In this document: piece after piece, positions 56,655 through 62,716 of the stretch
Layout of the letters: every line of letters starts with the position of its first letter
How positions within the stretch are numbered: position 1 is the stretch's first letter
Source: Gemmatimonadales bacterium
GTDB lineage: Bacteria; Gemmatimonadota; Gemmatimonadetes; Gemmatimonadales; GWC2-71-9
Direction of reading: 5' to 3'
DNA: 62,716 nucleotides
Assembly (NCBI GenBank): GCA_019637315.1
Contig: JAHBVU010000021.1
Coordinates: 1 to 62,716 of the forward strand
The notes under the pieces: model-generated
Database searches by the model: none
What the model was told of the DNA's origin: nothing
The model's input: only the letters and a program-made list of their open reading frames with translations
Translations under genes and position numbers: made by a program

Positions 56655-57776
56655 CTACTCGTCCCAGACGTTTTCGAGCGCCGACTTGAGCCTGAACGCG
56701 CCAACGGTGACCACGGGAATCCCAGCCGGAAGCCCCGCAATCGCCATCTGCCCATTGCCCAGCGCAACAGCCTGTACCACGCGCTGTCGGAACCGGTTGT
56801 TGCCGTCGGCAATGAAGACGACATCTCCTTCGCTTGTACGCTGCACAGCCGGGGCTGGGAGCACGACCCGGTCGACCGGATCTGCCGATGGAAGCAGGAT
56901 CGAAGCGAACATCCCGGGCCTGACGCCGGTCGGAATGACGAGCAACTCGACCCGCACATCGACCGCACGGCGAAGGGAATCGACGACCCCCGACACCCGG
57001 ACCACCCGCCCTGGAATCAGACTGTCAGGCAGCGCATCGATCCGCACCGCAACCGAGTCACGCGGCCGAAGCTGCAATGCGGCATGCTCCGGAACGAATC
57101 CGATGACCCACAGTCTGCTGGCATCGCCCAGCGTGGCCAGCGGCGACCCTACCAGCACGGCCTCGCCCGGCCTCACCTTGACATCGATCACCGTGCCCGC
57201 CCGGGGAGCACGCACCACCACCTCCCCGGTCGCCGAGGGCGACAGGTGGCGCATGATCTCCTCGCTGCGGACCTGCTCGGCCTGGGCCGCCTCGAACTGC
57301 GCCCGTCGCCGCTCGACTTCCTCCTTCGACACCGCCTCCGCCTCCAGCAGGGTGCGAGATCGCTCATAGGCCGCCCGTGCCATGGTCAGTTCGGCCTGCG
57401 CCGTGACCACGTCCCGGTGCGCCACGGCCATTTCGTGGGAGTGGATGTGAAACAGCGGGGCGCCGGCAGCCACCCAATCCCCGGGCAGTACCAGGACGTC
57501 ATCGATACGGCCCTCGACAATCGAGCCGACATGTGAGGTCCGGGTGTCCGGGGTCGTGACGGTGCCCGGGACCACCAGGGGAATCGTCACGCGTCGCAGC
57601 ACGGTCGTGTCGACGACGATCCGGGTCGCCTCCATTTGCGCCGCCGTCAATTCCACCACGCCACGCGGCAGCGCAGCTGGTGGTCGGTCTGCGGTCTCGC
57701 CAGCACATGCGGCCGAACCACCCAACAGAACGGGAACGGCCAGGCGCACCATCGTCATCCGAGACATCATCATCAC
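56655..57776 (-). CDS. czcB: RND efflux adaptor lipoprotein, CzcB type
   Basis: A 373-residue membrane-fusion protein. A lipoprotein signal with lipobox SAAC lies near residue 24. Barrel-sandwich hybrid halves are split around a coiled coil (GRIDDVLVLPGDWVAAGAPLF, then MARAAYERSRTLLEAEAVSKEEVE, then VVRAPRAGTVIDVKVRPGE), followed by the beta-barrel. The GTG start overlaps the TolC-like gene stop (GTGA). No long His-rich metal-binding N-terminus, as found in some CzcB proteins, is present. Confidence 0.9.
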   Translation of the reverse strand: MMMMSRMTMVRLAVPVLLGGSAACAGETADRPPAALPRGVVELTAAQMEATRIVVDTTVLRRVTIPLVVPGTVTTPDTRTSHVGSIVEGRIDDVLVLPGDWVAAGAPLFHIHSHEMAVAHRDVVTAQAELTMARAAYERSRTLLEAEAVSKEEVERRRAQFEAAQAEQVRSEEIMRHLSPSATGEVVVRAPRAGTVIDVKVRPGEAVLVGSPLATLGDASRLWVIGFVPEHAALQLRPRDSVAVRIDALPDSLIPGRVVRVSGVVDSLRRAVDVRVELLVIPTGVRPGMFASILLPSADPVDRVVLPAPAVQRTSEGDVVFIADGNNRFRQRVVQAVALGNGQMAIAGLPAGIPVVTVGAFRLKSALENVWDE

Positions 57777-59047
57777 TCCGAAGGATCGTCACAGAGCACG
57801 GCGGCCTCGACCGGTGCTCCTCGTGCCCGGGCCAGCGCCGCCCGCGCCATCCGGCGTTCAGCACGCCAGCTCGCATAGTCATCCAGCGCAGCAAGCCTGG
57901 CACGGCGCGCATCCAGCAGCTCGGCGAGGGTTGCCTCGCCGGCACCATAGCGGGCCTCAGCCGCGGTCAGCGCCCGGACCAGGTCGCGCCGCCACTCTGC
58001 ATCGAACCGGCGCCGTGAGACCTCGAGGACCGCAACTGCTTGCTCCGCATGATGGCGTTCCGCCGCCAGTCGCGTCACGATGGCCTGGTACTCAACCTCC
58101 CGCGCCTCGGCTTCCGCCCGGGCGGCGGCAGCAGCAGCCCGACCGCGTGACAGCACCGGGAGGTCGACCGACAGCCCCACGATCAGGCCGGAGAAGCCGC
58201 CGGTGCGCCGCAAGCCGACCTGCGGCATCAGGTCCGGTACGGCCAGGCCCCGCTGCCGGTCAGACTCGGCACGAGCCACGGCAACCTGGGCGGCTGCTGC
58301 CGCCGCTTGGGCGTGTGGCAGGGGCGAGAGTGGCCCCGGTGAGCAAACGCCCGACGCGATCACGAGGGGAGTGCCGGGGACAAACCCGAGCAGGCGCGCC
58401 AGCGTCGCCTCAGACCCCAGAAGGGCCGCCTCGATCCGGGCGACCCGGGCCGCCGCAGCAGCCGATTCCAACCGAGCACGCGCCGCATCGCCCCCAGCAG
58501 TGCGTCCCTCTTCCGCTCGGCGCGTCATGGCCACCGCAAAACGCTCGAGGGCGGCAGCTTCCGCCCGCGCGGCCTCCAGGGCGGCCCGATCCCGCTCGAC
58601 CACCGCGATGCCTTCGACAGCAGCGACGGCCGCCTCCTGCTCGGCCAACGCCAGTCCGGCGGCGGCTCCGGACGCCTGCGCCCGGGCGGCGCGGATGAGG
58701 GCTCCATGATCCCCACCAAGGGGAACCCAGCCGGACAGGGTGACCTGCCCTTCGACACCGGCCAGGCCATCACGCCTCGTGATCTCCTGCTGGGCACCCA
58801 GATTCTCGGCGACGACATTCAACGTGGGGTTGCGCCAGGCCCGCGCTGCCGCAACGCCATAGCGAGTCGCCTCAACTCGCGCCGCGGCAGCAGTCACGCG
58901 CGGGGCCTGCCGCCGCGCCAGATCGAGTGCGTCGGCTGCCTGGAGACGGACCGTATCGACGGGAGTGCTGACCATCGCGAGGACAACCATGAAGACCACC
59001 GGAACATCCTCCGAGAACTCAACTCTCGAAGGGTAACGCTGCAACAT
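57773..59047 (-). CDS. czcC: TolC-family outer membrane factor, CzcC type
   Basis: A 424-residue Ala/Arg-rich helical protein. QAADALDLARRQAPRVTAAAARVEATRYG opens the outer-membrane efflux fold, WRNPTLNVVAENLG is the diagnostic CzcC segment, and a duplicated second half begins AQAAAAAAQVAVARAESDRQRG. It would form the outer-membrane channel of the metal pump. The start used is ATG 59047 with AGGGG just upstream; ATG 58990 would leave too short a signal peptide. First gene of the czcCBA operon, divergent from the two-component system. Confidence 0.9.
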   Translation of the reverse strand: MLQRYPSRVEFSEDVPVVFMVVLAMVSTPVDTVRLQAADALDLARRQAPRVTAAAARVEATRYGVAAARAWRNPTLNVVAENLGAQQEITRRDGLAGVEGQVTLSGWVPLGGDHGALIRAARAQASGAAAGLALAEQEAAVAAVEGIAVVERDRAALEAARAEAAALERFAVAMTRRAEEGRTAGGDAARARLESAAAAARVARIEAALLGSEATLARLLGFVPGTPLVIASGVCSPGPLSPLPHAQAAAAAAQVAVARAESDRQRGLAVPDLMPQVGLRRTGGFSGLIVGLSVDLPVLSRGRAAAAAARAEAEAREVEYQAIVTRLAAERHHAEQAVAVLEVSRRRFDAEWRRDLVRALTAAEARYGAGEATLAELLDARRARLAALDDYASWRAERRMARAALARARGAPVEAAVLCDDPSE

Positions 59048-59114: not shown

Positions 59115-59795
59115 ATGCGCCTGCTCGTCGTCGAGGACGAACCTCAACTGCTCGACTCCCTGGCCCGCGGACTGCGATCGGCCGGACACGCCGTCGACGG
59201 CGCTTCAACCATTGGTTCGGCACTCGACAAGTTGGCTCGAGACCCGTACGACGGCGTGGTCCTCGACCTGAACCTGCCTGATGGTTCGGGTCTCGACCTC
59301 GCCCGTCGCCTGCGCCAGGACGGAGCCCAACTCGTGATCCTGGCGCTGACCGCATACGACAGCATTGCCGACCGGGTGGCCGGACTCGACGCCGGCGCCG
59401 ACGACTACCTCGTCAAGCCGTTTGCGCTCGATGAACTGCTGGCCCGTCTCCGCGCGCTCGAGCGCCGCCAGGCCAGCATTCGGCCAAGCACACTGGTAAT
59501 CGACGATCTCGTGATCGACCCCGCCGCCCGGACCGCCGCCCGCGGAGGGCAGCCGATCGAACTGACGACGACCGAGTTTTCGCTGCTCGAGTTTCTGGCC
59601 AAGAACGCCGGCCAGGTGGTGGGTCGCGCGACGATCAGCGCGCACGTCTGGGACGAAAACTACGACCCGCTCTCCAACATCATCGACGTCTACATCGCAC
59701 GGCTCCGGCGCAAGCTCGACACTGGCGGCGCCCCGCTGCTTCACACGATTCGTGGCGCCGGCTACGTACTGCGCCCCGAGTATGATGATGCCTAG
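59115..59795 (+). CDS. OmpR-family response regulator
   Basis: A 226-residue regulator. The receiver has the acidic pocket VVEDEP, phospho-acceptor Asp51 (GVVLDLNLPDGSG) and Lys101 region YLVKPFALDELLARL. A winged-helix DNA-binding domain follows from ~125 (PIELTTTEFSLLEFLAKNAG, SNIIDVYIARLRRKLD). It is divergent from czcCBA, 67 bases away, so it most likely controls the metal pump in the manner of CzcR/CusR. Confidence 0.93.
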   Translation: MRLLVVEDEPQLLDSLARGLRSAGHAVDGASTIGSALDKLARDPYDGVVLDLNLPDGSGLDLARRLRQDGAQLVILALTAYDSIADRVAGLDAGADDYLVKPFALDELLARLRALERRQASIRPSTLVIDDLVIDPAARTAARGGQPIELTTTEFSLLEFLAKNAGQVVGRATISAHVWDENYDPLSNIIDVYIARLRRKLDTGGAPLLHTIRGAGYVLRPEYDDA

Positions 59796-61230
59796 ATATC
59801 CGCTCCGTGGGCTTCGGGTTCGCTTGACGGTGGCGGTCGGAGCAAGCTTCGGTCTTCTGCTGGCGGTGTCGGCGCTGCTGCTCTACGCCGCTCTCGAGCG
59901 GCACTGGCGGGAAGAGGTCGACCTCAACCTGAAGCATTCGAGCGAGGGGGCCTACGCCCTGTTCCTGGCCGACACCGAAGACAACGTGACTCCCCGGGCC
60001 ACTCTGATTCACGTTGCCACGGAGCTGGTCTACGGCGACCGCTCGATCGTTGGACTCGATCCCGACGGCCAGATCATTGCCCACAGTCGCTCGATCGAAG
60101 ACACACCGGAGTTCTTCGCCACCGACCTGGGCGCCGTCGACACCGTTCCCGTTACGCTGATGACGGATGAGGGTCCCTCGAGGGTGGTGGCGGTGCGACT
60201 GCCCGAAGGATTTCGACTGATTCTCGGTGTCTCGCTTGGCCCGGTCGAAGAGCGGCTCCGGGATCTCCGCCTGACCCTGACGGCGGGGTTCGTCTTGAGC
60301 CTCCTGGCGGGAACCGTCGTTGCCTTCCTCGTTTCGGGTCGCGCGCTGACACCGGTCACGGACGTTGCCCGCACCGCCGATCGGGTCAGCGACGCACTGG
60401 CCCGAGGGGTGGTCCCGGACGTGGTCCTTCCGACGCCGGCCGCTCCGGACGAGGTGGGTCGGCTGCAGGTGGCGTTTGCTGCGCTGGTGCGTCGTCTCGA
60501 CCTTGCGCTGGGGCGAGAGCGGGAGGTCGCGGCCAACCAGCGGCGCTTCTTCGCCGACGCCGCGCACGAGCTGCGCACCCCGATTACGATCCTGCGCAAC
60601 GAGATCGAAACCGCACGGCAAACCGCTGATCCGCACGCACCGGAGCGGATCATGCTCGACCGGCTCCAGACGGAAGCGGAGCATCTGACCAACCTGGTCA
60701 GCGATCTGCTGCTGCTCGCCCGGGGCGAAACTGCAGGTGACCTGCGGACCGCGTCGGTGCTCTATCTCGACGATATCGTGAGCCGAGTCATCCTCCGCGC
60801 CGGACGACATCCCGCCGCGGCTGGACGGCAGCTGACGACCGGGCGCTTCGACACCAGCGCCGTGCGTGGCGATCCGTCACTGCTCGAACGCGCGGTCATG
60901 GCCCTGGTGGAAAACGCCCTGATCCACGCCCCCGCAAGTGACATCGAGATCACCGTCGGTGCCGAGGACGGCCGCAACCCGCGGCGATGGGTGGCAGTGG
61001 CCGATCACGGACCGGCAATTCCCCCCGAAGCGAAGGAGAAAATCTTCGAGCGGTTCTTCCGAGTCCGTCATGACGTGCCCGGCAGCGGACTGGGGTTGGC
61101 AATCGTACGGTGGATTGCCGAACTGCATGGCGGCTCGCTCCGCCTCGTCCAGTATCCGGACCAAGCCGGTAAAGCGTTTATCCTGGAGCTCCCTGCGCAC
61201 AGCCAGACGCACTCTGGGACGTCAGCCTAA
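59782..61230 (+). CDS. sensor histidine kinase
   Basis: A 482-residue inner-membrane kinase. Helix 1 lies at ~12-35, a ~125-residue periplasmic sensor loop follows, and helix 2 is LTLTAGFVLSLLAGTVVAFLV. A HAMP domain precedes the H-box FADAAHELRTPITIL; the N-box (LVENALIHAP), G1 (VADHGPAIP) and G2 (GSGLGLAIV) are intact. Three ATGs in a row (59782, 59785, 59788) overlap the regulator stop. The periplasmic loop is not His- or Cys-rich. It overlaps the convergent gene by 9 bases. Confidence 0.92.
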   Translation: MMMPRYPLRGLRVRLTVAVGASFGLLLAVSALLLYAALERHWREEVDLNLKHSSEGAYALFLADTEDNVTPRATLIHVATELVYGDRSIVGLDPDGQIIAHSRSIEDTPEFFATDLGAVDTVPVTLMTDEGPSRVVAVRLPEGFRLILGVSLGPVEERLRDLRLTLTAGFVLSLLAGTVVAFLVSGRALTPVTDVARTADRVSDALARGVVPDVVLPTPAAPDEVGRLQVAFAALVRRLDLALGREREVAANQRRFFADAAHELRTPITILRNEIETARQTADPHAPERIMLDRLQTEAEHLTNLVSDLLLLARGETAGDLRTASVLYLDDIVSRVILRAGRHPAAAGRQLTTGRFDTSAVRGDPSLLERAVMALVENALIHAPASDIEITVGAEDGRNPRRWVAVADHGPAIPPEAKEKIFERFFRVRHDVPGSGLGLAIVRWIAELHGGSLRLVQYPDQAGKAFILELPAHSQTHSGTSA

Positions 61231-61965
61231 CGACGCCAGGGAGTCGACCGCATCGCGCAGCTGAGCGAAGTCGTCGAGCACGAAAAGCACCTCGGGTAGC
61301 CGATCGACCGGCACCGGGGTCGCCAGTACCTCGGCAAGGCTGAATGGCCGATGAACGCAGGCCGTTCCCAGCGCGTGCCGGCTCAAAGCCACCGACGGTA
61401 CCAGTTCGCTGCCGTAGACTTTGGTGCGATCTCCCTCTCGGATCAAGCCAAACGTGGCCGTGAACGCGAACAGCCCCGCAAGCCCTTCCCGGGCCTCCGG
61501 CGATTTCGCTGCCAAGGAAACCGCGCCGAATCGCTCGAGGAACCCGGCATACCGCACCTCAGCAAGCAGCGGAACCCGCCCGACCAGATCCGCAAAGATG
61601 TCAGACGCAGGCGGGTGTTCGACCTCGGCCGACGGCCGAATAGCCACCGCGCTCGGCAAACGACGCCGACTGAGACTTCGGGCAAGATGGGCCTCAGGAA
61701 GGTATGACTCCCCCGGAACGACCGCCCACCCGGTCCGCGGCACGAGCCGCCGATTGAGATGGCGAAAGTTGGGAATCCGGGATGGGCCGAGATCGAGGTA
61801 CTCGATCCCACTGAGCACCGGAATGGCAGCATCGGTAAGCAGCGTCGCAAAGCGTCGGCAATAGAGGGCCGTCCACACCGAATGGTCCTTCACCCCGTAC
61901 GCCGAGGGACGCTGGCGCAGGGGCTGCTGGCGGTGGCCGACTGAGACGACGATCTGGGACGACAT
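61222..61965 (-). CDS. aromatic amino acid hydroxylase homologue lacking all iron ligands
   Basis: A 247-residue protein that tracks bacterial phenylalanine hydroxylase throughout: DHSVWTALYCRRFATLL, LDLGPSRIPNFRHLNRRLVP, RTGWAVVPG, SDIFADLVGRVPLLAEVRYA and TFGLIREGDRTKVYGSELV. The two iron-binding His of the usual DxxH-x4-H are Ala125 and Arg130, and the third ligand (Glu of TVEFGL) is Thr171, so no iron centre can form. Arg110 aligns with the substrate-carboxylate Arg. ATG 61965 has a GGAG site 7 bases upstream. It is probably a ligand-binding pseudoenzyme. Confidence 0.82.
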   Translation of the reverse strand: MSSQIVVSVGHRQQPLRQRPSAYGVKDHSVWTALYCRRFATLLTDAAIPVLSGIEYLDLGPSRIPNFRHLNRRLVPRTGWAVVPGESYLPEAHLARSLSRRRLPSAVAIRPSAEVEHPPASDIFADLVGRVPLLAEVRYAGFLERFGAVSLAAKSPEAREGLAGLFAFTATFGLIREGDRTKVYGSELVPSVALSRHALGTACVHRPFSLAEVLATPVPVDRLPEVLFVLDDFAQLRDAVDSLASLG

Positions 61966-61984
61966 CGTGACGCTCCTATCAGGG

Positions 61985-62021
61985 AAAACAAAAAGCGACC
62001 CACAAGTGTTTGCGGGTCGCT
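61985..62021 (-). terminator. intrinsic terminator in the leader of the pseudo-hydroxylase gene
   Basis: On the minus strand AGCGACCC (62014-62021) pairs with GGGTCGCT (61994-62001), with inner CAA/TTG pairs, followed by TTTTTGTTTT. It stops about 20 bases upstream of the gene's ATG, which makes it a good attenuator candidate. Confidence 0.8.
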
Positions 62022-62069
62022 GCCGAGTCATGCTGGATCGTTGATCGATCTATAGACGATGCACTCGGC
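62022..62069 (-). ncRNA. structured leader hairpin upstream of the terminator
   Basis: GCCGAGT (minus-strand reading of 62063-62069) pairs with ACTCGGC (62022-62028), and ATCGT with ACGAT (62056-62060 and 62037-62041) inside it, around a GATCGATC-containing loop. The stem abuts the terminator stem with no spacer. A further weaker CCTCGA/TCGGGG stem lies upstream at ~62074-62092. Confidence 0.5.
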
Positions 62070-62139
62070 CGCAGCCCCGAAACCACTCGAGGCAGCACAT
62101 AATCCGGCCGACCGTGCAAATCCGAACCATAGTGTCGGA

Positions 62140-62167
62140 ATGATAGCAAACCGGGTTTGCCGCGCAA
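62140..62167 (-). promoter_or_regulatory. candidate promoter with palindrome in the spacer
   Basis: Minus-strand TTGCGC (62162-62167) and TATCAT (62140-62145) are 16 bases apart. The spacer is almost entirely the inverted repeat GCAAAC-CCG-GTTTGC (62146-62160). Transcription would begin near 62133, giving a leader of about 168 bases. Confidence 0.5.
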
Positions 62168-62225: not shown

Positions 62226-62716
62226 TCATCGATCGCCCAGCCGTTCGACCCGCGCCACCATGATTCCGTCCTGCGCTTTGATCGAGCGAATCCGACTGGC
62301 GAGGGGTACTTCCGAAATCTCCACGACCCGCCCGACCAGCGGCGCATGCAGCAGGTGCAGCTTGCCGTTCTGCCAAAGCGCCAGGCCGGTGTGCGCCACA
62401 TCGAGGCCCGCCAGCGTGGAGGTGGCGGCGATGATGTCGCCATCGCGAATGCCAGGCGCAGCCTTCGCGATGCTCGCTTCGCGAATGAACCAGCGCGGCC
62501 CCGACGCGTTCAATCCGGCCTCGACGCGTCTGATTGCCGCGAGGTTGTCGCCGTCCGCGAGCTGGCGATACGCCGAGGTGTGTCGGGTCATGAACGAGAT
62601 CGGTTCCGCATCCGCGGCCCCGCCGAGTGAACGGCTGAGCTGCCGCAGCATGCCGCGCCGCTCGTTGTCCGCCAACCATTCTGAGAAGTAGTGCAGCCGG
62701 CTGGGATAGCCGTCGA
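62226..62716 (-). CDS. DUF1460-family protein, 5' end outside the window
   Basis: The last 163 residues of a gene that continues past the right edge. YPSRLHYFSEWLADNERRGML followed by DGDIIAATSTLAGLDVAHTGLALW and KLHLLHAPLVGRVVEI match DUF1460, an NlpC/P60-related amidase fold. The likely catalytic His is in VAHTG, and the Cys should lie in the missing part. TTG 62675 is not the start because the family region extends upstream of it. It precedes the pseudo-hydroxylase leader on the same strand. Confidence 0.82.
   Translation of the reverse strand, partial: DGYPSRLHYFSEWLADNERRGMLRQLSRSLGGAADAEPISFMTRHTSAYRQLADGDNLAAIRRVEAGLNASGPRWFIREASIAKAAPGIRDGDIIAATSTLAGLDVAHTGLALWQNGKLHLLHAPLVGRVVEISEVPLASRIRSIKAQDGIMVARVERLGDR

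Follow-up and report, generated by a model that had tools for sequence, protein, structure and literature searches.

Organization of the Locus

The DNA analysed here (the window, 62,716 nucleotides of a Gemmatimonadales contig) carries close to its end a minus-strand gene for a protein related to phenylalanine hydroxylase (PheH), which is called pseudo-PheH below. The features of the locus are collected in Table 1. The start of the gene lies about 750 bases from the contig end, and its GC content by codon position (0.72/0.50/0.73) is similar to that of the adjacent genes. A promoter scan upstream of pseudo-PheH listed no site, and no notable Rfam match to a known RNA family was obtained there.

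Table 1. Features at the pseudo-PheH locus, in window coordinates
Feature	Position	Strand	Description and basis
Pseudo-PheH gene, 247 aa	61222..61965	minus	ATG at 61965, last base of stop at 61222; profile, alignment and structure
Shine-Dalgarno-like AGGAG of pseudo-PheH	61973..61977	minus	7 nt ahead of the ATG; sequence
Terminator hairpin, 12 bp and U-tract	61994..62021	minus	Located where the HHE relatives have their attenuator terminator
Match to attenuator covariance model R1	61988..62104	minus	21.3 bits, E 0.0003
Candidate leader ORF MVRICTVGRIMCCLEWFRGCGRVHRL	62050..62130	minus	Sits where relatives have Tyr leader peptides
Promoter-like pair TTGCGC (62167) and TATCAT (62145)	62140..62167	minus	Stops ~10 nt short of the leader ATG; weak consensus match
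AmiA-like amidase (PF07313), upstream neighbour	62226..62714	minus	Extends past the contig end
Histidine kinase gene, convergent	59752..61230	plus	Overlap of 9 bases between its 3' end and the pseudo-PheH stop

Farther into the window, genes for a CusB/HlyD-like membrane-fusion protein and an outer-membrane efflux protein (56655-59047) are divergent from a two-component system (59115-61230), and this metal-efflux-like cluster adjoins pseudo-PheH. Gene neighbourhood was considered as a functional clue and set aside: the neighbours in the window do not recur next to the pheH homologues from this genus and family. The comparison returned a single weak and unrelated match, and a distant two-component pair was seen near the Burkholderia pheH copy.

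Homology, Predicted Fold and Loss of the Iron Ligands

Residues 58-242 of pseudo-PheH match the Pfam profile PF00351 (E 3.9e-23), and residues 15-243 match bacterial PheH models including PRK11913 (E 5e-51), under the equivalog cut-offs of these models. The protein aligns with Chromobacterium PheH almost from end to end, and its 247-codon frame is uninterrupted. In alignments with Chromobacterium PheH and with the homologues, Ala125, Arg130 and Thr171 stand at the positions of the His/His/Glu iron ligands, and the stretch around them is ungapped, with no sign that the ligands have moved to nearby residues. Arg110, which corresponds to human Arg270 and contacts the substrate carboxylate, is retained. 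A preliminary description of this DNA had claimed the hydroxylase homology, the open frame, the replaced facial triad and the conserved arginine, and all four claims hold.

The structural comparison with bacterial PheH proposed in that description also found the predicted fold intact. An AlphaFold model computed from an alignment of pseudo-PheH and 31 related proteins reached a pLDDT of 91.1 and a pTM of 0.87, and its best structural matches were to C. violaceum PheH (1LTV; TM 0.87, Z 31). This homologue-based prediction indicates compatibility of the sequence with the PheH fold, and does not imply stability in the cell. By homology and by predicted fold, the protein belongs to PF00351, the PheH catalytic domain. 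Of the hallmarks of a phenylalanine 4-monooxygenase, the 2-His-1-carboxylate iron site, which reads A125/R130/T171, is missing, and most of the conserved contacts with phenylalanine and pterin are replaced. Judged from these residues, pseudo-PheH should not be able to catalyse hydroxylation.

Erosion Beyond the Metal Site

The comparison set comprised 76 near-invariant positions, defined on the nearer group of homologues together with the Burkholderia copy; pseudo-PheH differs at 24 of them. Nineteen of the 76 were assigned to the iron, phenylalanine or pterin site from human PAH ligand contacts. Changes were found at 13 of these 19 active-site positions versus 11 of the 57 other near-invariant positions (Fisher p 0.00015). 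For a second test, the three ligands were dropped, since the finding had been selected on them, and the enrichment persisted (10/16 versus 11/57, Fisher p 0.0016).

The changes affect 9 of the 12 near-invariant residues of the phenylalanine and iron site and 4 of the 7 on the pterin side. In the phenylalanine pocket they comprise Y117H, E120A, P121S, W167A, G187E and S190P, while R110, D126, F172 and S191 are among the residues kept. The pterin loop had been described as conserved; this proved wrong, as it carries V85G, G87S, F94L and F95A. Because both pockets are eroded, beyond the metal site alone, a ligand sensor is unlikely, and the earlier suggestion that the protein senses an aromatic amino acid or a pterin finds no support.

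Relatives of Pseudo-PheH

Homologue searches covered 102 family, 288 order and 394 class genomes, in overlapping sets of which the class set is a sample. The homologues fall into two groups, a nearer one with 36-48% identity to pseudo-PheH and a farther one with ~29-36%. The triad reads His/His/Glu (HHE) in all 64 homologues in which it is complete and readable, and no second case of A/R/T was found among the homologues read from the genus, family, order or class sample. The idea that A/R/T might be conserved in a clade was therefore not borne out by the 64 readable triads, and in the sequences compared pseudo-PheH is a singleton, one sequence from one genome. A direct dN/dS measure of selection is impossible because there is no related A/R/T gene. 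In the tree, the branch of pseudo-PheH measures 4.48 versus 1.46 for its sister L040, with a long-branch warning and an unsure placement. The sister, from genome G253, itself deviates at five invariant sites (e.g., Ser for Glu at 120) and keeps HHE and a Tyr leader.

Pseudo-PheH is the sole PheH-like gene in its own genome, which offers it no active PheH to regulate. The farther PheH group adjoins the gene for HPPD in eight genomes (G085, G084, G083, G079, G078, G076, G077 and G081; for example G085 C5:60782-62842). This position fits a catabolic role, and suggests that separate catabolic and biosynthetic PheH clades exist in the order.

Tyrosine Metabolism in the Genus

No prephenate dehydrogenase (PF02153, TyrA) above the cut-off was found in any of the six members of the genus. 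The carbinolamine dehydratase PF01329, present in 260 of the 288 order genomes, many of them without PheH, was not found in the genome of pseudo-PheH, which is 95% complete, such that absent genes may fall in gaps. Among the five other genus members, PheH was not detectable in two (G089 and G091). G090 encodes an HHE PheH with a Tyr leader, and G092 a divergent HHE PheH with a Tyr leader of its own. G093 carries an intact Tyr leader and a pheH start at a contig end (C134), as well as a broken pheH fragment (L063, G093:C63, 9846-9274, minus strand) with an in-frame TGA; on either side of a deletion, this fragment matches G090 DNA at 97-98% identity. An argument from this broken copy that G093 had lost PheH was dropped, given the Tyr leader and the other pheH start.

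Loss of tyrosine synthesis in the pseudo-PheH lineage is inferred from the lack of both a prephenate dehydrogenase and a working PheH, and at 95% genome completeness tyrosine auxotrophy of the species would be the simplest inference from its gene content. Two broader ideas were rejected: the tyrosine degradation pathway has not been lost entirely, as HPPD is present in the pseudo-PheH genome, and PheH does not generally substitute for TyrA across the order, as both occur in many relatives.

Tyrosine Leaders of the Working Relatives

In 25 of the 31 relatives whose upstream DNA was read, pheH is preceded by a short leader ORF carrying a Tyr run, and five more such leaders were found elsewhere. 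Examples are MIRAPRTPSYRYYYVPLSTGRERRRVRG and MSRRRLATTTYYYTPRIPGRGVRAVRA, with stretches such as ...SYRYYYVP.... The leader ORFs end ~20-40 nt ahead of a GC-rich terminator, which itself lies close upstream of pheH. In many relatives TTGAC is found ~35 nt before the leader ATG, a spacing that suggests leaderless translation of the leader peptide. The Tyr codons are followed by a conserved CGGG complementary to the 5' arm of the terminator, and this candidate antiterminator pairing was individually significant (p <0.05) in only 6 of the 24 relatives scored. From its sequence anatomy, the layout looks like a putative Tyr-responsive, ribosome-mediated attenuator on a biosynthetic PheH. The loci with both Tyr leader and terminator are L002, L004, L032-L034, L036-L041, L043, L044, L046, L048-L054 and L056. 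No published Tyr-responsive attenuator was found among the open-access papers searched, and a Tyr-responsive attenuator of pheH is apparently undescribed.

A covariance model, R1, was built from 19 of these leaders with the pseudo-PheH locus left out. At E 0.1 or better, R1-like leaders were present in 141 of the 288 order genomes. Tyr leaders of this type precede DAHP synthase at L090, L102 and L105, and a comparison of coordinates placed tyrA matches a short distance downstream of such leaders in several genomes. Variants with Phe runs occur before prephenate dehydratase (L106) and before DAHP synthase (L104), and variants with His runs lie before a gene that, from its sequence, reads as hisG (L111 and L117); L115 also has a His-run leader. 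Across the order, the control codons (Tyr, Phe, His) vary on one RNA scaffold.

The Leader of Pseudo-PheH

R1 recognises the segment upstream of pseudo-PheH although that locus is absent from the model. The preliminary description had overlooked this attenuator-like leader, which points to an ancestral role in tyrosine supply. A terminator stands before the gene, and none of its 11 modelled pairs is broken: four pairs differ on both sides from the usual pair of the relatives, giving four double compensatory changes, and one further change is a wobble. Adjacent Tyr codons are absent in every frame, and Tyr sensing by this leader layout is, as far as the sequence can tell, lost at the locus. The candidate antiterminator pairing (-13.2 kcal/mol) was no better than that of shuffled sequence (p 0.30), so the attenuator may no longer work. 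The candidate leader ORF MVRICTVGRIMCCLEWFRGCGRVHRL has Met-Cys-Cys where the relatives, with the same spacing, have the Tyr run, and four Cys in 26 residues; the covariance alignment favours a register other than this frame, which makes the leader frame uncertain. A search of the same genome with R1 gave only two matches, both weak (E 0.17 and E 0.52), of which the better one looks like chance.

Neutral Decay Versus Constraint

Starting from three relatives, we simulated unconstrained mutation up to the point at which active-site erosion equalled that of pseudo-PheH, which needed about 300-380 substitutions. At equal erosion, a stop-free frame was left in 3-5% of the runs, and the probability of a frame free of both stops and frameshifts was 2e-7 to 3e-5 when 0.05 frameshifting indels were assumed for each substitution. 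The core was kept as well in at most 0.35% of the simulated runs. The simulation assumes a neutral rate at the active-site residues; faster change there would mean that less elapsed time was needed, and even so the core would still be constrained relative to the active site. Plain neutral decay is disfavoured by these results. Because neutral simulations rarely keep both frame and core, and because the gene has coding-like GC, we conclude that constraint on the fold outlasted catalysis. From one sequence, such constraint can be claimed for the past only, not for the present day.

The preliminary description had presented the protein as a selected pseudoenzyme. The loss of all ligands, the intact frame and a fold constrained after that loss agree with it, as catalytic loss and constraint elsewhere are both indicated, indirectly and for a single sequence, by the Fisher test without the ligands and by the simulations. 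The sensor role is not supported, and the dead state, a singleton, was not found in the related genomes searched.

Proposed History and Alternative Explanations

These observations leave two broad readings, a repurposed pseudoenzyme and a slowly dying gene. On balance, we lean toward the view that pseudo-PheH descends from a biosynthetic PheH that made tyrosine, and that it lost catalysis but was held to its fold. The ancestral enzyme would have converted phenylalanine to tyrosine and been induced under tyrosine shortage; judging from the leader anatomy of the relatives, ribosomes stalling on the Tyr run would have blocked the terminator before pheH. Tyrosine synthesis would then have been lost in the pseudo-PheH lineage. 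The iron site, phenylalanine pocket and pterin loop presumably eroded afterwards, and the Tyr run disappeared from the leader, with the fold-defining residues, frame, ribosome-binding site and terminator retained. The product most probably persists as a folded, non-hydroxylating protein, weakly expressed or under a changed signal, and a structural or partner-binding role is proposed for it.

It is also quite possible, if less probable, that the gene is a relic on its way to being lost, in which a useless enzyme decays in a tyrosine auxotroph and the frame is open by chance or through short-lived constraint. The absence of TyrA across the genus and of PheH from two of its members would suit such a relic, as would the missing Tyr run, the long branch (4.48 versus 1.46 for L040), an antiterminator pairing not above shuffles, and the changes that have reached the near-invariant core (11/57). 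What speaks against it is that neutral simulations seldom keep frame and core at equal active-site erosion, that changes in the terminator were compensated in pairs, that the fold is predicted with high confidence, and that GC by codon position is coding-like.

A further idea, that the dead PheH was recruited to a non-catalytic role and its attenuator re-targeted, with induction by shortage of, for example, cysteine, derives from the Met-Cys-Cys codons of the candidate leader ORF and from the control-codon variation on this scaffold within the order; we regard it as unlikely. Slightly less credence still is given to a phenylalanine or pterin sensor that lost its chemistry and kept ligand binding: Arg110 and the fold are kept, but 9/12 and 4/7 of the near-invariant residues on the two sides of the site have changed, and the genome has neither a second PheH nor a PF01329 dehydratase. 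Very improbable is a metal enzyme whose ligands have moved and which performs hydroxylation or related chemistry. Several His residues are still present elsewhere in the protein (e.g., the one replacing Tyr at 117), but the alignment around the ligands is neither gapped nor shifted, Ala, Arg and Thr form no facial triad, and the majority of contacts with substrate and cofactor have been lost. An assembly or sequencing artefact, which the closeness of the contig end might invite, is just as remote given more than 20 separate conserved-site substitutions in an intact frame with normal codon-position GC and a compensated terminator.

Significance and Comparison with Known Systems

Among described aromatic amino acid hydroxylases we found none that has lost its whole iron site with the fold kept, and among the open-access papers searched none joining "aromatic amino acid hydroxylase" with "pseudoenzyme". 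If this is so, pseudo-PheH offers a natural test of what the PheH scaffold does without its chemistry. The surroundings may matter more, as there is an apparent tyrosine-responsive attenuator on pheH, with similar ones before DAHP synthase operons. If true, the leader would mark a PheH as tyrosine-making, and biosynthetic and catabolic PheH could be separated by sequence alone.

Pseudo-PheH resembles PheH/PhhA of Chromobacterium violaceum in its predicted whole-chain fold, substrate arginine and structural motifs; it shares ~30% identity with 1LTV and as much as 48% with its relatives. Unlike bacterial PheH/PhhA, it has lost the three iron ligands and most contacts with phenylalanine and pterin, and its genome lacks PF01329. 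As in pseudoenzymes generally, catalytic residues are lost and the fold is retained, but pseudo-PheH is known from one genome.

Biosynthetic PheH is known for Dyella, Legionella and Echinicola (GapMind, PMC7311316). The relatives of pseudo-PheH resemble these systems in that they sit in a genus without detectable prephenate dehydrogenase and look, by their anatomy, like genes for tyrosine supply; compared with what is described there, the copy in the window is predicted to be dead, and the relatives have in addition a Tyr leader peptide and a terminator. Like trpL, pheL, hisL and aroR of C. glutamicum, the relatives carry a leader with control codons, a terminator and a complement of the terminator arm. 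The aroR leader has Phe-Tyr-Phe and responds to phenylalanine only, not to tyrosine (PMC11802643). Compared with these ribosome-mediated attenuators, the relatives use Tyr as the control codon and pheH as the gene, and the copy in the window keeps the terminator without the Tyr run.
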